NCBI GenBank assembly: GCA_002839375.1 | Contig: PGXY01000001.1 | Location: forward strand, 186,001 to 250,000 | From: Spirochaetae bacterium HGW-Spirochaetae-1 | GTDB taxonomy: Bacteria; Spirochaetota; UBA4802; UBA5550 | Direction: 5' to 3' | Length of the DNA stretch: 64,000 bases | Part shown: piece by piece, positions 26,798-52,049 of the stretch | Layout: each line of letters starts with the position of its first letter | Position numbering within the stretch: the stretch's first letter is position 1 | The notes under the pieces: model-generated | Told to the model about the DNA's origin: nothing | The model's input: only the letters and a program-made list of their open reading frames with translations | Databases searched by the model: none | Translations under genes and position numbers: made by a program

Positions 26798-28347
<1,550 letters not shown>

Positions 28348-28381
28348 AAAAGGAATGAAGAATTTTTTACACTATGTCCCA

Positions 28382-28411
28382 TTATACTACTCAGTTTTGA
28401 AGGAGCTATTT
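28382..28411 (+). other. 16S processing stem, 3' arm
   Basis: Pairs with 26699-26729 through TTATACTACTCAGTTTT and GGAGCTATTT; it follows the 16S 3' end by about 35 bases. Confidence 0.8.
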
Positions 28412-28464
28412 AGCAATGTCAAAAAGGAAGTTGGTCTATAGGCCTTCAAAAAAAACATCTGAAA

Positions 28465-28538
28465 GGGCCTGTAGCTCAGATGGCTAGAGCGTACGACTGA
28501 TAATCGTAAGGTCGGTGGTTCGATTCCACTCAGGCCCA
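28465..28538 (+). tRNA. tRNA-Ile (GAU)
   Basis: Cloverleaf with acceptor GGGCCTG / CAGGCCC, D-arm GCTCAGATGGCTAGAGC, anticodon loop CTGATAA giving GAU, and T-arm GGTTCGATTCC. Located in the 16S-23S spacer as usual. CCA is not encoded. Confidence 0.97.
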
Positions 28539-28578
28539 ATAAATAAAAATTAGAAAATGGTATAAGCAATAGTTGACC

Positions 28579-28651
28579 GGGGGTGTAGCTCAGTTGGGAG
28601 AGCAACTGCCTTGCACGCAGTAGGTCGTCAGTTCGAACCTGATCACCTCCA
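28579..28651 (+). tRNA. tRNA-Ala (UGC)
   Basis: Acceptor GGGGGTG / CACCTCC with one G-U pair, D-arm GCTCAGTTGGGAGAGC, anticodon loop CTTGCAC giving UGC, T-arm AGTTCGAACCT. Second spacer tRNA. CCA is not encoded. Confidence 0.97.
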
Positions 28652-28810
28652 AATGGAAAAAGTTAATAACTTTTTCCTGACTCAGATCTTTTAAAACGGT
28701 TAAGCCTCGAAGATTATTCTAAAAGGTTTAACAATTTCATCGAGTAATACCAAAAATGGTGTTTAATCGAGCGTATTAAAGTCTATTGTTTACAGTAGAT
28801 AAAATAATAT

Positions 28811-31809
<2,999 letters not shown>

Positions 31810-35996: not shown

Positions 35997-37562
35997 TCAT
36001 ATCGTGGAAGACCACTGCAGACCGGTGTCTTCATGATAGACCAGGTATTTATTTTTAAAAAAATCTCTAATTTCCTTTTTCACTGTCGATTCGCTCAGTG
36101 ATGTCAGGGGCGCGAGCCGGCTGACAAGTTCATCAACTAAGGCATTTTCATCACGATTTCTGTACCGGGGATCGCCGGTAATATTATTCTTTATGATCTC
36201 CCAAGCAACGGCTCGGGAAATAGTTACTTCGGCCACTACATCCAATTCATCGGACAGGTGGGTTCCCTTCTGGTATTCAGAAATAGCGCATTGTATATAC
36301 GCGTCGAGGCTGTTGTTGAATTTTTTATATATGGCATCAATCTCCCCGCCGCTGATACCTGCGGGCTCACACACTGCCTGATTTGCGTCATATTTATCCC
36401 AGTCATCGTGGAAGATGCGTATGCCATATTCAGCACATTTATCCCGTACCTCCGTGCCGGGGAATGGGGATAGTATATGATATCCATATTGCGCGCCCAG
36501 TCCGCCGGCAAACTCCATGGTCTTTGTAACTGTTTCAGCGGTTTCACCGGGCAGACCGAGAATGTATGAGGCCAGTGGCAATATTCCCGCTTCCCGACAC
36601 ATGGCTACGGCCTTGCGGCACATTTCCAGCGTGGTTCTTTTCTTAACGGTATCGAGTATTTCCTGGTTTCCGCTTTCTATGCCGAAACAGAGCACTGTAC
36701 AGCCGGCCTGATGGAGCGATGAAAGAAGTTCCCGGTCAATCGTATCAACACGTGCAAAGGCGCTCCAGCGCACTTTGATATTTCTGTTTATTATCTCGTT
36801 ACATATTTCAGTACACCGTTTTTTGTGAGATGTGAAGAGATCATCGACTATATTGATCTGACGAAATCCCATACCGGCAAGCATCTGCAGCTCGTCCACA
36901 ACGCGCTCTACGGAAAAATAGCGCACCTTGCCTCCCACCATGCGCCGTCCCACGCAGAAAATACATCGGTGAGGACAGCCCCGCGATGTCATCATTCCTA
37001 TGGGCAGTCCAAGAGCCTTGTACTTGTTCAGATTGCATAAATGCCTGGCCGGGAAGGGCAGCGAATCGAGGTACTGGATGAATTCTCTCTCGCCGTTGTG
37101 TACTATCTCATTGCCTCGGCGGTATGATATCCCCGCAACCTTTTCAAGGTCTGAAGGACGGGACAGGGATTTGACCAGTTCCGTTGCCGTAACTTCCCCC
37201 TCTCCCCGGACAATAAAATCGATAAAAATATTTTCTGCGAGGATATTTTGCGCATCAAAGGTGGCATGGGGCCCGCCAAGGACAGTGGGTGTTTTTGGTG
37301 CTATATCGCGGCAGTCTTCCAGTATGGCAAGGGCTTTTTTGATATTCATGGTGACGCCCGTGGCGCCTATAAGATCGGGCTTATAATGATCGATGACGTT
37401 TTCTATGTATTCCCTGGTGTAGGGAGTGACAACGAAGTCTTCGATAATAACGTCAATATTGTTCTTGTTGAGATATGCGGCAAGAGACATGAGTCCGAAA
37501 GGAGGCGACGGTGATTCTTCCAGGGGATAGGGTGGATTTATCAATAAAAATTTTTTAGTCAT
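35997..37562 (-). CDS. B12-binding radical SAM protein
   Basis: A 521-residue enzyme with an N-terminal cobalamin-binding domain (KKFLLINPPYPLEESPSPPFGLM; VLGGPHATFDA) and a central radical SAM domain with the cluster motif C-x3-C-x2-C in SRGCPHRCIFC, then SVERVVDELQML and the Elp3-like CFGIESGNQEILDTVKK. The C-terminal 120 residues are helical and unassigned. Members of this large class methylate or rearrange lipids, antibiotics and cofactors; no specific neighbour identifies the substrate here. Cobalamin dependence is inferred from the domain pair. Confidence 0.9.
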   Translation of the reverse strand: MTKKFLLINPPYPLEESPSPPFGLMSLAAYLNKNNIDVIIEDFVVTPYTREYIENVIDHYKPDLIGATGVTMNIKKALAILEDCRDIAPKTPTVLGGPHATFDAQNILAENIFIDFIVRGEGEVTATELVKSLSRPSDLEKVAGISYRRGNEIVHNGEREFIQYLDSLPFPARHLCNLNKYKALGLPIGMMTSRGCPHRCIFCVGRRMVGGKVRYFSVERVVDELQMLAGMGFRQINIVDDLFTSHKKRCTEICNEIINRNIKVRWSAFARVDTIDRELLSSLHQAGCTVLCFGIESGNQEILDTVKKRTTLEMCRKAVAMCREAGILPLASYILGLPGETAETVTKTMEFAGGLGAQYGYHILSPFPGTEVRDKCAEYGIRIFHDDWDKYDANQAVCEPAGISGGEIDAIYKKFNNSLDAYIQCAISEYQKGTHLSDELDVVAEVTISRAVAWEIIKNNITGDPRYRNRDENALVDELVSRLAPLTSLSESTVKKEIRDFFKNKYLVYHEDTGLQWSSTI

Positions 37563-42870: not shown

Positions 42871-42902
42871 AAGGGGAGCCTGAAAGCTCCCCTTCCTGTT
42901 TT
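42871..42902. terminator. Bidirectional intrinsic terminator
   Basis: AAGGGGAGC / GCTCCCCTT stem with CTGAAA loop, with A residues before and T-rich sequence after. It separates the convergent HDOD gene and the RND operon end. Confidence 0.88.
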
Positions 42903-43649
42903 TTACAGCCTGTTTTTATTGAAATCACGTTCCGTGATGCCCGGATCATTATATACAACCTCTTTGATTTCCAGGACGGTCTTTCCAAGATTTGAACCGT
43001 CTTTTTCCAGGCGGTACATGATAGATTTCCTGGGCGTGAGCACGCCGTTTATTTTTTCAATGTTGTAATTGATGAGGCGTTTATACAGGAATCCCTTGTA
43101 GTAAATGTCGGTCTGGATGATAAAATTATCGCTTTTACGTACATAGAAAACTGCCCGGTCATAGACGCTTTTCCCCGGTTTGGGTGAGGCCTCGACTTTA
43201 TGGCAGTCGAAGGATTCCACCATGGCGTTTCCCGCAAGAGTGTAGGTACTGTCATTGATGTTACGCGGTTTCAGATCTTCGTAGAAAAAGTGAGAATTGA
43301 CCACGGCCTTGTTGCGGTCACCGGAAACGATTTTCTTTACCTTCATATCTTTTTGCTTAAGCCATTGCTGATCGTCGCCGCTTTCGGAAAAGGTGAGAAT
43401 TTTCATATTCACCGGTGACAGAAATTCAATCAGCGCTTTTTCACTATCGCCTTGTTTCAGTCCCATGACCTTCATTTCCCGTTTCAGAATCTCATCCCCC
43501 TTGTAAATGGTCATGTGGATGGTGCTTCGGGCTGTTTTGGCCGATATGAGTTTTTCGCTCTTCTCCATGATTTCCTTTCCCGTAAGGGCAAAGACAAGCT
43601 GAATGGAAGCTGCAATGGCAATTAAAGAATAAAAAATTTTTCGAAACAT
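42903..43649 (-). CDS. LolA-like outer-membrane lipoprotein-sorting protein
   Basis: Periplasmic LolA/LppX-type fold, 248 residues. ATG 43649 was chosen because AAAGGAGGAC lies 5 bases upstream; the longer frame runs into the RND gene. A signal peptide (FRKIFYSLIAIAASIQLVFA) is followed by KEIMEKSEKLISAKTARSTI, a typical COG2834 opening, then LIEFLSPVNMKILTF and the later SVYDRAVFYVRKSDNFIIQ. These proteins carry lipids or lipoproteins across the periplasm and are often encoded beside RND exporters of this type. Last gene of the tetR-headed operon. Confidence 0.88.
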   Translation of the reverse strand: MFRKIFYSLIAIAASIQLVFALTGKEIMEKSEKLISAKTARSTIHMTIYKGDEILKREMKVMGLKQGDSEKALIEFLSPVNMKILTFSESGDDQQWLKQKDMKVKKIVSGDRNKAVVNSHFFYEDLKPRNINDSTYTLAGNAMVESFDCHKVEASPKPGKSVYDRAVFYVRKSDNFIIQTDIYYKGFLYKRLINYNIEKINGVLTPRKSIMYRLEKDGSNLGKTVLEIKEVVYNDPGITERDFNKNRL

Positions 43650-43665
43650 GGAAGTCCTCCTTTTA

Positions 43666-46344
43666 TCAGTCATTTTCTTCATAATTAAAAAATCTGCTTA
43701 GATTGAGATATTTCCATACCGGGGAATCGGATCGGGATTCCTCCAGTGTTATTCCCGTGGCCTTTATGGCCGATGGAAGAATCAGTAGAGCGCCAATGGT
43801 TGTGGACACCATGGTCACTGCCGTGAGAAAACTGAAAAGTACAATAGGTTTGAAATTGGAAACGGTCAGAACAAGAAATCCGAATATGAGAGCCAGGGAG
43901 GTATAAATAATAGCCCTTCCGGCAATGGCAAGTGTTTTTGTTATCGTTTCATCTACGGTTAAACCCTGGCTTCGGTAATGACGAAAATTGTTGAGAAAGT
44001 GAATCGTATCATCGATACCGATACCGATTGTTATTGATGCTATGATAGCCGTGGCCGTATCGAGGCGGATGCCGAACCAGCCCATAATGCCGAAGTTGAA
44101 GATAACGGCAAGAGTGATGGGGATGAGGGCCGTGAGCCCTGCCGCGATATTCTTGAATAGCAAAATAACAATGATGCAGACAACGGCGAGACTGAATATC
44201 AGGCTCAGCATCTGGCCCATAACGATATAATACATGAGGCGCACCATGATTTTAGGCTCGCCGGTTATCTTATAGGAGTATCCCGGGGGCAGGTTTCGGT
44301 CCAGATAGTCTTCAATGCGGCTTATGGAATGGACCAGGTGGGCCGTGCTGAGCATTGCTCCGTTCCGCTCCCACTGCCGGGCGAAGATGTTGGCGGTTCT
44401 GAATTTGTGATCTACATAGGGTTCAAAGACATCAATACGGCCGTCATCATTGTCATCATCGCCGGAAAACATGAGCATATACCCTTCTATAGCGGAACGT
44501 TTTTCAGGTATTGAGTAAAATTTTTTTTCATTGTTGTTCATGGCCAGGTTCATGGTTTTAATAAAATCAGGGAAGGCGTCGGTGCGGCCGATGTTGACAT
44601 CCTTGTTTTCTTCGGCTTCGAGCCACTTCCTCGTATTGTCTATGAAGGTGAGATAGTCCGGTTCCAGTACCCCGTTTTCCTTGCCTGAATCAATGAGGAT
44701 ATTGATGCCAAAGGAGCCGCCGAATTTTTTCCCTATTTCATACGTGCTTGTGAGTATGGGATTTCCTTCTTTGAAATAGGCAAGTATCGATGTTTCGGCA
44801 ATGATGCGGAACGTCCCTGCAATGGCGAATATAACGACTATGAACATGCCGGTCAGAACCTTTTTATAGTGATGGATGGAAAGCCATGTAAAGAAGAAAA
44901 TGATTCTATCGATAAAACCATGAAACCGGATTTCAGTATCACCTGTATCAATTTGCCGGCGTTTTGCAGGAGCTTTTAGCGGAAGAAGAACCAGCATGGC
45001 CGGGATGAAGGTTATGGATATAAATACAGCGAAAAGGACGCCGATAGCGGAAAAAATACCCCATTCCTTTAAGGCATATACACCGTTAGTCATGAGCATG
45101 AGAAATCCTACGAATGTGGTGAATCCCGCCAGTATAACAGTGAGAGAGATGTGAGACATGGATGACCTGATTCCCTGCCTTTTATCACCGGCCGTGATTA
45201 AATTGAAATCAATATAATACTGATTCAGAAGATGTATTGAATAGGAACTCCCCACGGCCAGCATGAGGGGGGGGATGCAGACGCCCATGACGCTGACCTT
45301 GAAACCCAGGTGTCCCATGAGGCCCATGATCCAGATATCGGCAAAGTTCATGGAAAGGAAGGGGAGAAATACGCCCCTCAGAGACCTGAAGTTCAGGAAA
45401 AAAATTATGAGAATTGAAATCAGGGTCAGGGGCAGAAAGGTTTTCAGGTCTTGCTGCATGTAATGATTTATCTGTGTGTTTACATAGGGTATACCGTTAA
45501 TATTTATATGCAGTTCAGGATACCCCGTGGCAATTTCCTGCAGATCATCGGACAGGGTATAGTCCAGTTCACCATTAATGAGGCGGATAAGGACACTGAA
45601 ATCGGTAATATTGCCCGTTGTGCGGTCCAGGACGTAAATGCCTCGTTCGAAGGCAGGATTGTTACGAAGCCTGTTACTGAAAATTTCAATTTCTTTTTTC
45701 GTTGAAGGAATAATACGGCGATCGTTATCGTCACGGTCTATGAGTTTATATGTGATCAGTGTATCATCTTTCCCTGTAAGGTCCTGGGCCGTGTATGGTG
45801 AAAGAATGGCATCAATGAGCTGTTTTTTCTTCATGGCCTGGGCGGCCTGAATATCCTTTTTCAGTTTTTCCGTTTGACGGGCTGAAAGAGAATCAGAATC
45901 GGCAAAAAGTTTTTTCCATTTTCTTTCCAGTGTACGGATAAAAGGCTGGTCGTCGCGGAATGCTTCACGAAGCATTGAAAGGCTGAGGTTCCCACGGCCG
46001 GCTGTTTCAACGAAACGGCGGAGCCGTGATGATTCTTTCTCTTCATCATATGTCTCATATTCTTCTATGTCGGTATGAAAAAGGTCAAAGGAATGCAGAA
46101 ACTCCGGAGTCATGGCATTATCTGATGATACGGTCATGATAATAAAATTGCCATTGTTGCCATAGATGGCCTTGGTTTTTTCATTCAGGAGATATTCGGC
46201 GTCCTTTTTTGGCATCATAACCTCCAGGCTGTTTTCAAATTGCAGTTTGAAAATACCCAGGGCCATGTATATGGTGATGGCAATAATTACGACGATGACT
46301 ATAACAGGGCGTCTGATGACAAAGTCTAGAATTCGGTTCATCAT
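43666..46344 (-). CDS. RND/MMPL-family exporter (HAE3-like)
   Basis: An 892-residue inner-membrane transporter with two halves, each a first span followed by a large periplasmic loop and five clustered spans; MMPL blocks are PLTLISILIIFFLNFRSLRG, GFTTFVGFLMLMTNGV, and in the second half GIDDTIHFLNNFRHY and AGRAIIYTSLALIFGFL. The conserved acidic pair of the second half is GIGIDDTIHF. It belongs to the single-chain predicted exporters (COG1033) that move lipids or hydrophobic compounds, and here has its own barrel and periplasmic carrier genes. The substrate is unknown. Confidence 0.93.
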   Translation of the reverse strand: MMNRILDFVIRRPVIVIVVIIAITIYMALGIFKLQFENSLEVMMPKKDAEYLLNEKTKAIYGNNGNFIIMTVSSDNAMTPEFLHSFDLFHTDIEEYETYDEEKESSRLRRFVETAGRGNLSLSMLREAFRDDQPFIRTLERKWKKLFADSDSLSARQTEKLKKDIQAAQAMKKKQLIDAILSPYTAQDLTGKDDTLITYKLIDRDDNDRRIIPSTKKEIEIFSNRLRNNPAFERGIYVLDRTTGNITDFSVLIRLINGELDYTLSDDLQEIATGYPELHININGIPYVNTQINHYMQQDLKTFLPLTLISILIIFFLNFRSLRGVFLPFLSMNFADIWIMGLMGHLGFKVSVMGVCIPPLMLAVGSSYSIHLLNQYYIDFNLITAGDKRQGIRSSMSHISLTVILAGFTTFVGFLMLMTNGVYALKEWGIFSAIGVLFAVFISITFIPAMLVLLPLKAPAKRRQIDTGDTEIRFHGFIDRIIFFFTWLSIHHYKKVLTGMFIVVIFAIAGTFRIIAETSILAYFKEGNPILTSTYEIGKKFGGSFGINILIDSGKENGVLEPDYLTFIDNTRKWLEAEENKDVNIGRTDAFPDFIKTMNLAMNNNEKKFYSIPEKRSAIEGYMLMFSGDDDNDDGRIDVFEPYVDHKFRTANIFARQWERNGAMLSTAHLVHSISRIEDYLDRNLPPGYSYKITGEPKIMVRLMYYIVMGQMLSLIFSLAVVCIIVILLFKNIAAGLTALIPITLAVIFNFGIMGWFGIRLDTATAIIASITIGIGIDDTIHFLNNFRHYRSQGLTVDETITKTLAIAGRAIIYTSLALIFGFLVLTVSNFKPIVLFSFLTAVTMVSTTIGALLILPSAIKATGITLEESRSDSPVWKYLNLSRFFNYEEND

Positions 46345-46366
46345 AAAGTGTGCATCTCCTTTTCAA

Positions 46367-48070
46367 TTAATAGGTCTTTCCAATGAACCTGACTCCATAG
46401 GGGTCTTTGGTACCATCGTCGGCTCCCAGTAAAAAATTATTCTCATCGCTGGTAATCTGTATTTTTTTCGGCGCTGTTTGATACGCAGTGAAAAAGTTGT
46501 TCTCCCAGTACGCGGCAATATTATCGCCGCTTGAGGGCATGCCGTTATTATCACGGTCATAGAGGACATAGACATAGGAATTCATGGCCAGGGTAACGGC
46601 AATGCCTTCATCCAGGGCGGCAAAGAGGGGAAAGCTGTAATGGTGATTCGGGTCAGCCACATAAGGCAGCAGCGCCATTCCCGTGACGTAATTAATATCA
46701 TCGATGTTCCGCGTCAGGTTGTTGACGCCGTCGTCATGAACGACGAGACAGATGAGCGAATTCCCTTCAACCATGCCCGCTGGCCGTGATGAAGGATCGA
46801 GTTGAAATTCCACCGTGGTGTTGTAGTCATACATTTTTTTATTGAGCTGGAACTTCCAGTCGCCCGAGGCCTGGTGATAGGCCGTGTTGGGACCGCTTTC
46901 AGCCAGGGCAATGGTGAAGGCGAAGTTGTCGAGATCGGTATTCTGATAGTATCCGACCATGTCACCCGCCGTTGGACTGGGAAAACCGCCTGAATAATCC
47001 TTGTCCCAGAGCGCTATGACCATGACTTCGTCCCCGGGCTCGAGGTCTGTTGTGGAAAGATCGATGCTGAAACTGCTCATGCCGGGATCGAGTTTTTTGA
47101 AGGCCTTGACGACGCTGAGAGGATCGGTAAAAAGCGCGCCGGGATCATCGGTGTGGGCAATCATGATGAATACCGGTTTGGACGATGAATCATATCCTTC
47201 CGGGTGTTCAAAGTAGCCGTCGATGGTCATGGCATAGTCCGAGGATGACATGAGTTCCATCTGTCCTGTGATGTTAATACCGCTGTTGGGGCCCTGGGTG
47301 ATTACACACTGCAATGGCACGCCAGTAGCTCCATCGGCATAAAAGGCCAGGGCGTCGCCGGCATTGGGAATGCCGTCGTTATTCAGATCAAAGAGAGCGA
47401 AGACATAGACATCATCCATGGGGACATTCCTGCCGAAGGGCATTATATCAAGGGAGTAATCGACGCTTTCTCCTGTCTTGGTCACTGTACCGTATCCCAT
47501 TATTTTATCCATGTCCAGCGACGTAATGTCGAGTGAGTCAACGCTTCCGGCATAGGCAATGAGAGTGACTGTCCCGGTGAGGGCATTGGTGATGGTGCCT
47601 TCTATGGATGCCTGGTAATCATAGATAAGCCGGTTGATTGTTATATCAATATTACGATTATCACTTTGCATGGTGCGGGAGGGCTGCATGGTCTCACTGT
47701 TTATATAGAAGCCGATATAATCTCCCGGATCAGGGTAGGGAACTCCTCCGTCATAATTTACGTCAAGGATGGCCGTGATGTACACCGTATCGTTTCTGCG
47801 CACGCCGTGTTCCGCGAGATCAAGGGAATAGGAGCCATTGTCGGGACAGGATATCATGGTGATGACATGATCAAGGGGCTGCGCCTTGATAGCTTCAAAG
47901 TCGGCCGTATCGGTGAAAAGAAGAAATACCGGGCCGGTGACGGGTTCGGCCGTGTCAACTGATACAGTGCCGGAAATGTTTATCGATGCAGGTGAGTCCA
48001 TACCGCAGGCGCTGATAATCATCGCCATAAACAGTATAAGAAGATGGGTTGGTTTACATTTTGTATTCAT
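46367..48070 (-). CDS. Repeat lipoprotein with calcium-loop motifs
   Basis: A 567-residue lipoprotein; lipobox ISAC at about residues 19-22. The mature part contains four copies, roughly 120-140 residues apart, of a beta-rich unit ending in an acidic loop: LDVNYDGGVPYPDPGDYIGF, LFDLNNDGIPNAGDALAFY, LWDKDYSGGFPSPTAGDMVG and LYDRDNNGMPSSGDNIAAYW. Loops of DxDxDG type usually bind Ca2+. The unit resembles secreted carbohydrate-binding or Ig-like modules but I cannot name the family. It sits between the barrel and RND genes (overlapping the barrel end by 17 bases), so it is probably an envelope component of the export system. Confidence 0.85.
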   Translation of the reverse strand: MNTKCKPTHLLILFMAMIISACGMDSPASINISGTVSVDTAEPVTGPVFLLFTDTADFEAIKAQPLDHVITMISCPDNGSYSLDLAEHGVRRNDTVYITAILDVNYDGGVPYPDPGDYIGFYINSETMQPSRTMQSDNRNIDITINRLIYDYQASIEGTITNALTGTVTLIAYAGSVDSLDITSLDMDKIMGYGTVTKTGESVDYSLDIMPFGRNVPMDDVYVFALFDLNNDGIPNAGDALAFYADGATGVPLQCVITQGPNSGINITGQMELMSSSDYAMTIDGYFEHPEGYDSSSKPVFIMIAHTDDPGALFTDPLSVVKAFKKLDPGMSSFSIDLSTTDLEPGDEVMVIALWDKDYSGGFPSPTAGDMVGYYQNTDLDNFAFTIALAESGPNTAYHQASGDWKFQLNKKMYDYNTTVEFQLDPSSRPAGMVEGNSLICLVVHDDGVNNLTRNIDDINYVTGMALLPYVADPNHHYSFPLFAALDEGIAVTLAMNSYVYVLYDRDNNGMPSSGDNIAAYWENNFFTAYQTAPKKIQITSDENNFLLGADDGTKDPYGVRFIGKTY

Positions 48071-49541
48071 AACGAACCCTCATCCTGATGAAATCATTGT
48101 CGGTGTAAAGCCCTATCATGCTCCTCTCGCGTCCATGGATAAAGGCGTAGGACACATTGATGGACAGGCCCATGGGAAAGCGGTACTGCACTTCCGGCAT
48201 TATAATTGTTCCTTTTTCAGTAATATCAACGATGCCTGTCACCAGAACTTTGAGGCGGCTATACAAAAAAGTGTCTTCAACGCGGACGATGAGGATATCG
48301 CCCAGCATGGGATCCATGATATTGCGTGAGAAATAGGTCGGCCTGCTGTATTCCGTGGTCAGCACTGCATCGCCTTCATGTCCCTCGAAGAGTTTATTCA
48401 TGGGTATCATGTAGTTGAACCCGGCAGTGGTGTACAGGGCGTGGAAGGTCCTTGTTTTGAAGGGAAACTGCGGTATCTGCCCGCCCGAATAATCCTGGTC
48501 CACAACGCCGGTTTTCAGGGGACTGTAGGCCGCCTCGAACTGGAATACGAAATCATTCCAGCCCCGGGAAAGTGCCAGGCCGGTTTTTATAGTGGTATGA
48601 TATTCGGGACGTACATCGACTGCAATGGGCTCATTCGGTACGGCTATGGTACCCATGGGCCGGAATAGCGGCTCCGTGTCGGGACCATAATAGGCACTGA
48701 TGTTCACATCGGTGCTGAGAATATTTTTATAGTACTGCAATCCAACGGCGATATTTTTAATGTCCGGTTCCATGGGTCGTGATGCGGCAATGCTGATGGG
48801 ATATCCCTCTTCCTCGTAGCGCAGCTCCCAGAAGGTATTTTTTTCCGGCAGGAGTGCTGGGACGTGCAGGGGTACTATAACCAGCTCCAGCGTATCATCG
48901 CCGATAAAAAAAAGGGACGAGAGGGAAGGTACTCCCTGGCGGAGTTCGTCCTGGTCCTTGAACAGGGCCTCCCGCATATCCATGGGATTGAAGTAGGACG
49001 TAGGATTGAAGACATCAGCCGTTCCCCATTGATAAATCTGGTTCCCGGCTCGGAGACGGAAGAAACTGAATTCGGCGTTGTAATAAAGTTTATTGAAATT
49101 TATTTCGAAGGACGATCCCCGCGCGGTGCCGTTACGGTACACGGTGGGATCATGAACATAGTCATGTATATAGACATTGGAATTCATGACAAAATAAAAG
49201 TTTTCAGATCCGGTGCGCAAAGATAGATTGTTTCGTATTTCATTTTTCTTGACTATATCACGGAAGGCCTGATGGGGATAGGTACCGGTGAAATTTTCAA
49301 ATTCTATGAAGCCCTGTAATTCAGTAGTGCCGCCCTGGGCTTCCCGTGTCGCTGATTCATCTTCATCGCCATCCGAATCATCCTCTTCGGCCTGGACTGG
49401 CGGTTTCTTCTTGAGCATGATATCAGCGGCCATGACGGTATTGCTTAAAAAAGGGACCATGTACATGATGGCGAGAAGAACCAGCCACAGCAGCGGCATG
49501 TGTGATGCAACTCCCTGCCTGGAAATTCCCTCTTTTTTCAT
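48054..49541 (-). CDS. DUF1302-like outer-membrane beta-barrel
   Basis: A 495-residue outer-membrane protein. Start ATG 49541 overlaps the tetR stop by four bases (ATGA). Signal segment LLWLVLLAIMYMVPFLSNTVMA; acidic low-complexity stretch EEDDSDGDEDE about residues 50-60; then alternating beta-strands to the C-terminal VRYEYKM. The block GNQIYQWGTADVFNPTSYFN and RQGVPSLSSLF resembles DUF1302-type proteins, which occur next to RND exporters and lipid-processing genes. It probably forms the outer-membrane exit of the operon's export system. Family call is from pattern only. Confidence 0.82.
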   Translation of the reverse strand: MKKEGISRQGVASHMPLLWLVLLAIMYMVPFLSNTVMAADIMLKKKPPVQAEEDDSDGDEDESATREAQGGTTELQGFIEFENFTGTYPHQAFRDIVKKNEIRNNLSLRTGSENFYFVMNSNVYIHDYVHDPTVYRNGTARGSSFEINFNKLYYNAEFSFFRLRAGNQIYQWGTADVFNPTSYFNPMDMREALFKDQDELRQGVPSLSSLFFIGDDTLELVIVPLHVPALLPEKNTFWELRYEEEGYPISIAASRPMEPDIKNIAVGLQYYKNILSTDVNISAYYGPDTEPLFRPMGTIAVPNEPIAVDVRPEYHTTIKTGLALSRGWNDFVFQFEAAYSPLKTGVVDQDYSGGQIPQFPFKTRTFHALYTTAGFNYMIPMNKLFEGHEGDAVLTTEYSRPTYFSRNIMDPMLGDILIVRVEDTFLYSRLKVLVTGIVDITEKGTIIMPEVQYRFPMGLSINVSYAFIHGRERSMIGLYTDNDFIRMRVRYEYKM

Positions 49542-50122
49542 GTCGCCACGATCCCGTGCAGCAGCACATCGGCCAGTTTTTTCGATAGTTCTTCGTCGTT
49601 CATGGAATCGGTTTTTGCCGCCGGTAGAATTTTTGAAATGATGAAATAGGCAACGATGCATATAATAAAGACCTTGGTGGGGTATTCGTAGTCTATGGGC
49701 CTGATGCTCTTTCCAGCATAATCATTTTTTACCTTGTCAATATAAACAGTACTGGCCAGGTTGATGAGCGCTTCCAGGACACGGTTGGTGTTTTTACCCT
49801 GCAGCTCGATGAGGTCGATAAAAATGAGGCGGTATTCTTCAATGTTCTGGTCAATGACTACTTTCATGGCGAGAATGATTTCATTCAGGTTAAAAGGAAA
49901 ATCTTTATTTATCATGGCACCGAAATCAGGGAAGGTGTCAATCAGGTTGGCCGGATCCATAATGCTGTTAAAGATCTCTTCTTTGTTATGGAAATAATTA
50001 TATATATTGCCGATTGAAACGCCTGCCGTATCGGCGATTTCCCGGAGACCCGTGGCGGAATAGCCTTTTTCTGAAAAAAGCTTTTTTGCAGTATCGATTA
50101 TCAGTTTTTTTCGGTCTTCCAT
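49538..50122 (-). CDS. TetR-family repressor of the RND operon
   Basis: A 194-residue regulator. N-terminal HTH: TAKKLFSEKGYSATGLREIA then DTAGVSIGNIYNYFHNKEEI, the standard TetR layout; residues 60-190 form the ligand-binding helical domain (DLIELQGKNTNRVLEALINL). It is first in the operon and sits next to a perfect 32-base palindrome, so self-repression relieved by a hydrophobic ligand, perhaps an export substrate, is the likely mode. The stop overlaps the barrel gene start. Confidence 0.93.
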   Translation of the reverse strand: MEDRKKLIIDTAKKLFSEKGYSATGLREIADTAGVSIGNIYNYFHNKEEIFNSIMDPANLIDTFPDFGAMINKDFPFNLNEIILAMKVVIDQNIEEYRLIFIDLIELQGKNTNRVLEALINLASTVYIDKVKNDYAGKSIRPIDYEYPTKVFIICIVAYFIISKILPAAKTDSMNDEELSKKLADVLLHGIVAT

Positions 50123-50135
50123 AAAATTCCCCTGA

Positions 50136-50167
50136 TAGACTAAGAACGAACGTTCGTTCTTAGTCTA
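50136..50167. promoter_or_regulatory. TetR operator palindrome
   Basis: An exact 32-base palindrome centred between 50151 and 50152; its core is GAACGAACGTTCGTTC, flanked by ACTAA / TTAGT. It lies 14 bases upstream of the tetR start, the usual place for a self-controlling operator. Confidence 0.9.
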
Positions 50168-50312
50168 AATATATATAAATTGATTCAGGAAGTCAATAGA
50201 GAGAGGAAATTAATAGTCTCTATTGAAAATGATTTCGATGGACTCCTATGAAAGTCTGACAGGTTTGAGATATGAGCGAAAACCTGCAGGGGGAGAGGAA
50301 TGCAGAAGATTC

Positions 50313-51995: not shown

Positions 51996-52049
51996 GTATA
52001 GAAACAACAAGGGCCAGTCTGAAAAGGCCGGCCTTTGTTGTTTCTATAC
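51996..52049. terminator. Long bidirectional stem between convergent genes
   Basis: A 20-base-pair stem: GTATAGAAACAACAAGGGCC (51996-52015) pairs with GGCCTTTGTTGTTTCTATAC (52030-52049), one G-T pair, with a 14-base loop. It lies between convergent genes and can stop both. Confidence 0.8.

Follow-up and report, generated by a model that had tools for sequence, protein, structure and literature searches.

A TetR-headed operon for putative trans-envelope transport of hydrophobic compounds, with an undescribed tandem-domain lipoprotein, in a spirochaete

The analysed window, a 64,000-nucleotide stretch of contig PGXY01000001.1 from Spirochaetae bacterium HGW-Spirochaetae-1, contains five genes on the minus strand that lie in the order TetR, barrel, lipoprotein, RND, LolA-like carrier. 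The first (49538-50122) encodes a TetR-family repressor of 194 aa (PF00440, TetR_N, 4.4e-18), and is followed by genes for a DUF1302-type outer-membrane beta-barrel (48054-49541; 495 aa from an internal Met; PF06980), a tandem-domain lipoprotein (46367-48070; 567 aa) with a lipobox (ISA-C22) and four predicted Ig-like domains, an HAE3-like RND/MMPL transporter (43666-46344; 892 aa; PF03176, MMPL, 3.6e-30) and a LolA-like periplasmic carrier (42903-43682; 259 aa; PF17131, LolA_like, 3.5e-31). All five ORFs were present on one strand, in the order and with the overlaps given by the original prediction, and its proposals of a protein set spanning inner membrane, periplasm and outer membrane and of a spirochaete origin are supported. 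The tetR and barrel genes overlap by 4 bp if the barrel begins at the ATG at 49541; its longest ORF reaches 49661, but translation from 49541 yields an N-terminus resembling a signal peptide. This 4-bp overlap recurs in six relatives. The barrel and lipoprotein genes overlap by 17 bp, the lipoprotein and RND genes are separated by a gap of 22 bp, and the RND and LolA genes overlap by 17 bp, the last hinging on the choice of start codon and being absent from some relatives. A hairpin with T/A runs on both sides (AAGGGGAGC-loop-GCTCCCCTT, 42871-42894) is a probable terminator at the operon end; the program listed it on the plus strand, and by eye the minus strand shows a GC stem followed by TTTTTT. 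Elsewhere in the window, a stretch free of long ORFs at 26798-31809 is explained by an rRNA operon (16S-tRNA-Ile-tRNA-Ala-23S), and a 25-nt inverted repeat, imperfect and with a 4-nt loop, lies between two convergent genes (51996-52049) and is probably a terminator.

The palindrome noted earlier at the head of the operon was confirmed as a perfect 32-mer (50136-50167), here considered a putative TetR operator, and none of 100 shuffles contained a match with 3 or fewer mismatches. It directly follows, with no gap, the -10 hexamer of a sigma-70-like promoter on the minus strand (TTGACT-17 bp-TATATT; 50168-50196), the best in the region with 10/12 matches. Promoter-like sites in the region were in total no more numerous than in shuffles, and the weight of this promoter therefore rests on its place ahead of the operator, which relatives conserve. 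In 10/10 TetR loci, window included, the repressor gene was preceded by a TTGAC-like box and a form of the operator; in three of them (L029, L058 and L063) the mechanical ORF starts upstream of or within the operator and a later ATG is the likely start. The operator core before tetR, ACGAACGTTYGTTC, was exact in eight of the ten and one base off at L027 and L029. TetR orthologues heading the operon in relatives were 40-45 % identical. In the window's 5.2-Mb genome, AACGAACGTTCGTT occurred at a single site when up to one mismatch was allowed, and the repressor therefore appears dedicated to its own operon. A palindromic operator thus adjoins the promoter of the repressor's own operon, and this footprinting by sequence comparison agrees with the self-regulation that had been proposed: the operon is apparently self-repressed by TetR, and the gene set is probably inducible.

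A search for the same gene order in other spirochaetes, the test named in the original prediction, returned the complete TetR-barrel-lipoprotein-RND-LolA order in three genomes of another family (L032, L033 and L034), with proteins 31-49 % identical. L030 displayed the same order until the contig ended within the RND gene, L026 and L027 carried TetR-barrel-lipoprotein without a pump alongside, L028 carried a barrel-lipoprotein pair cut upstream, and L029 and L035 were divergent forms. Genes flanking the L030 and L032-L034 operons were otherwise unrelated, except for a radical SAM gene near three of them. The window itself carries a B12-binding radical SAM gene at 35997-37562, with a 54-56 % identical homologue near the operon in L030, L032 and L033, possibly a case of loose synteny. 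Acyl-CoA ligase-like genes, a point in favour of the transport reading preferred below, stood beside the operon in relatives of family f2 and beside a paralogous set in the window's genome (L094), and two acyltransferase-like neighbours in L036, with an HHxxxDG-like motif recognized by eye, gave no Pfam match. Gene order varied, which tells against that reading, and included barrels without lipoprotein and barrel-lipoprotein pairs without an RND gene nearby; Desulfobacterota carried the module in rearranged form. Because five-gene synteny persists at such identities, together with a conserved operator and a barrel-lipoprotein overlap found across two phyla, the comparison indicates that the five-gene arrangement is more than chance, real and conserved. 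By the sequence evidence the five genes are regulated as a unit, as had been claimed.

The lipoprotein was the component for which no precedent had been seen. That statement stood in so far as no named family in Pfam or NCBIfam was matched, searches of these and of PDB sequences giving nothing beyond weak EF-hand-loop matches, but the protein proved to be a recurrent partner of the barrel in Spirochaetota and Desulfobacterota. Of 393 Spirochaetota genomes, 16 carried it, and all but one of these belonged to the window's own order. An AlphaFold2 model built on 11 relatives (pLDDT 82) consisted of beta-sandwich domains; the best Foldseek matches were pilin, adhesin and complement Ig-like chains, which shared the local fold only, the global TM-score of the whole lipoprotein being about 0.1. 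The four repeats align mutually at up to 35 %, and all four units have an Asp/Asn-rich loop (D-x-N/D-x-x-G...P...GD) in common. In the model, Ig-like domains bearing EF-hand-like loops follow one another in a row, four of them in the window protein; a regular expression counted up to eleven such loops in relatives, low counts including truncated ORFs and loops missed by the expression. The family is undescribed and is the most interesting part of the operon.

The barrel matched PF06980 partially (24.8 bits against a cut-off of 23.2), and its AlphaFold2 model, of moderate quality (pLDDT 69), displayed a barrel fold with the alginate exporter AlgE and porins as best Foldseek matches. Scanning GTDB genomes with a barrel alignment identified 41 loci in Spirochaetota, Desulfobacterota and relatives, six of them on contigs already seen. 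The lipoprotein gene lay directly after the barrel in 24 of 37 informative loci, was absent there in 13, and could not be assessed in 4 others where the contig ended; the search itself did not involve the lipoprotein, but its seed alignment was drawn from loci found through the lipoprotein and the fraction may consequently lean upwards. In 24/24 pairs, in Spirochaetota and Desulfobacterota alike, the lipoprotein gene opens with an ATG 8-11 bases ahead of the barrel stop codon, giving an overlap of 11 or 14, and this gene overlap is the tightest link in the system. RND and/or LolA genes were nearby in most barrel loci. Correlations of distance matrices were 0.89 for barrel and lipoprotein and 0.86 for barrel and LolA (0/2000 permutations each) and 0.60 for barrel and RND, values which partly reflect the shared species history of the hosts. 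One tentative reading, which we hold to be possible though somewhat improbable, is that in Spirochaetota and Desulfobacterota the barrel and the tandem-domain lipoprotein are joined, as LptD is with LptE, in a conserved outer-membrane machine of two proteins, into which varied inner-membrane motors (the 892-aa RND, shorter RND or TRAP-linked sets) would plug for hydrophobic cargo, with repeat number setting its reach.

The nearest NCBIfam model to the pump was the HAE3 subfamily TIGR00921, at 219 bits, below its cut-off of 351.9. The pump carries the motif GIGIDDTIH in its second half and VGSSYSIH in its first. When RND proteins were aligned, DDTIH (window residues about 770-790) was retained in nearly all pumps, whereas at about 360-380 the 890-aa pumps have VGSSY and the 780-aa type an Asp (ADSIH). 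Energy coupling by the pump is not certain, because this first-half helix has SS in place of the Asp of the shorter type. In L029, L052, L059, L073 and L081 the shorter RND (about 770-790 aa) accompanies this barrel family instead of the 892-aa type, and RND genes of one type, some divergent, stand side by side in twos or threes ahead of LolA and barrel in L065, L070, L082 and loci like them. The PDB relatives of the LolA-like carrier were 9tp6, 4z48 and 3bk5. Membership of the pump in the RND superfamily, and a repressor whose nearest PDB relative is that of the AcrAB operon, would suit a broad-range efflux pump for multiple drugs or solvents, controlled by an AcrR-type repressor. We consider this explanation quite improbable, since the pump is closest to the HAE3/MMPL and not the HAE1 type, and since the operon has a soluble LolA-like carrier instead of a membrane-fusion protein or TolC. 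The operon also contains no ABC gene equivalent to the LolCDE transporter of the canonical Lol pathway (LolABCDE), an RND pump being present instead. Genes of 224 and 355 aa beside Syntrophales barrels, considered as a possible ABC transporter, were rejected upon matching DUF554 and YchF in Pfam; ABC-2 genes beside the L066 and L068 barrels are a lead only, the L068 barrel starting about 200 bp away from genes that have their own TolC and HlyD.

Four further loci in the window's genome contained parts of the system: a paralogous RND-LolA-barrel set lacking the lipoprotein (L094), a barrel-lipoprotein-LolA set lacking RND (L025), and single RND (L093) and lipoprotein (L024) genes standing alone. 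To judge from these arrangements, the parts of the operon can become separated in the course of evolution; this speaks against one obligate complex of five proteins and also against the lipoprotein as cargo. The latter possibility would make the operon a private lipoprotein-sorting line, in which RND and LolA convey the repeat lipoprotein itself for surface display through the barrel. The LolA fold of the carrier and the position of the lipoprotein gene, inside the operon and overlapping that of the barrel, speak for such a line; RND-LolA-barrel sets without the lipoprotein, in L094 of the same genome and in L049, L055, L057, L073 and L081, and lipoprotein paralogues situated away from RND genes (L024, L038, L039), make it very unlikely.

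Among described systems the closest known is AmeABCD of Castellaniella defragrans, a four-part HAE3 exporter; cells in which it is deleted tolerate monoterpenes less well and accumulate more Nile Red (PMC6394551). In plan it corresponds to the window operon: a single cassette has genes for a DUF1302 protein of the outer membrane, a periplasmic member of the LolA superfamily, one more envelope protein and an RND pump, which is of the HAE3 subfamily in AmeABCD and HAE3-like in the window. The two differ in the carrier, which is DUF1329 (PF07044) in AmeABCD and PF17131 in the window, no PF07044 match being found in the window's genome at E 1e-3; in the length of the RND protein (787 versus 892 aa); and in the TetR gene and palindrome that head the window operon, unlike AmeABCD. 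The position of AmeC (COG4447/YCF48) is taken by the tandem Ig-like lipoprotein, for which Pfam gave no AmeC-like COG4447/YCF48 match and the model indicated Ig-like domains. Clusters in Pseudomonas putida (PP_0765/0766 with PP_2018/2019, DUF1302/DUF1329/RND genes needed for growth on Tween 20; PMC10866462), Delftia (a DUF1302/DUF1329 cluster tied to phenanthrene; PMC3110197) and ORM2 (a 'Nanopod' cluster tied to benzene; PMC13101534) likewise combine a barrel or porin, a LolA-type carrier and an RND protein with hydrophobic compounds. Their carrier is DUF1329, their periplasmic partner is of YCF48 or another type where described, and a repeat lipoprotein is unreported. The BstABC sterol transporters of Methylococcus pair an RND inner-membrane protein with periplasmic and outer-membrane lipid binders (PMC10942540); the match of the window pump to the BstA model was marginal (20 bits versus 1400), BstB is a solute-binding protein, and neither a LolA-like carrier nor a DUF1302 barrel is described for the system. 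The hopanoid transporter HpnN is a member of HAE3, the RND subfamily nearest to the window pump, and is said to function with no dedicated partners in the periplasm or outer membrane (PMC6394551), and the window pump scored far below the HpnN model cut-off. We judge the operon to be a fresh variant of the HAE3-LolA-DUF1302 transport systems.

The rearranged modules of Desulfobacterota bear on the direction of transport. In L067 (6930-10549) an RND-LolA-barrel-lipoprotein series continues into TatT, DctP, DctQ and DctM; in L074 (7303-8703) the module is followed by TatT and the start of DctP, and in L075 (15751-16626) by TatT and the contig end. TatT-type TRAP systems have been put forward as importers of hydrophobic molecules (PMC5812351). 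BstC, which is related to TatT and has PF16811 in common with the TatT following these modules, binds sterols beside an RND protein (PMC10942540). In an uptake or handling route, a hydrophobic growth substrate would be caught outside the cell by barrel and lipoprotein and ferried through the periplasm by the LolA-like protein, and the RND protein would energize the process or remove excess. The L067 gene order and the requirement for the P. putida genes on Tween 20 are in keeping with such a route and demand caution in assuming export. TRAP genes are, however, absent from the window's operon and from beside its spirochaete relatives, and the best studied HAE3 cases, AmeABCD and HpnN, are described as outward movers; we therefore regard uptake as unlikely. 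By analogy a hydrophobic cargo is likely, because AmeABCD and the P. putida, Delftia and ORM2 clusters all have links to hydrophobic compounds and because of the proposed role of TatT-type TRAP systems and the sterol binding of BstC. The outward direction is less well supported than the nature of the cargo.

Our preferred reading, to which we assign a probability of roughly 0.58, is that the operon is dedicated to moving a small hydrophobic or lipid-like molecule across the envelope in the manner of AmeABCD, under repression by its own TetR. From the comparisons above we infer the AmeABCD-like mode of action, the class of cargo and its outward movement, the imposition and lifting of repression, the binding of calcium and the role of the lipoprotein. 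TetR, bound to the palindrome over the transcription start, would keep its own operon shut until a hydrophobic ligand frees it. The proton-driven RND pump would then lift the compound from the inner membrane and load the LolA-like carrier, which would cross the periplasm and hand the compound to the DUF1302 barrel for passage through the outer membrane. The tandem-domain lipoprotein, its translation presumably coupled to that of the barrel, would be the lipid-anchored, constant partner of the barrel and may serve for docking or as a spacer arm, stiffened by calcium and of a length that differs among species. The single-copy operator offers a cheap handle, as its inducer would point to the cargo. 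The passage of hydrophobic molecules across the periplasm, into or out of diderm cells, is poorly known, and through this operon the HAE3-LolA-DUF1302 group, itself only loosely described, is linked to spirochaetes and sulfate reducers.
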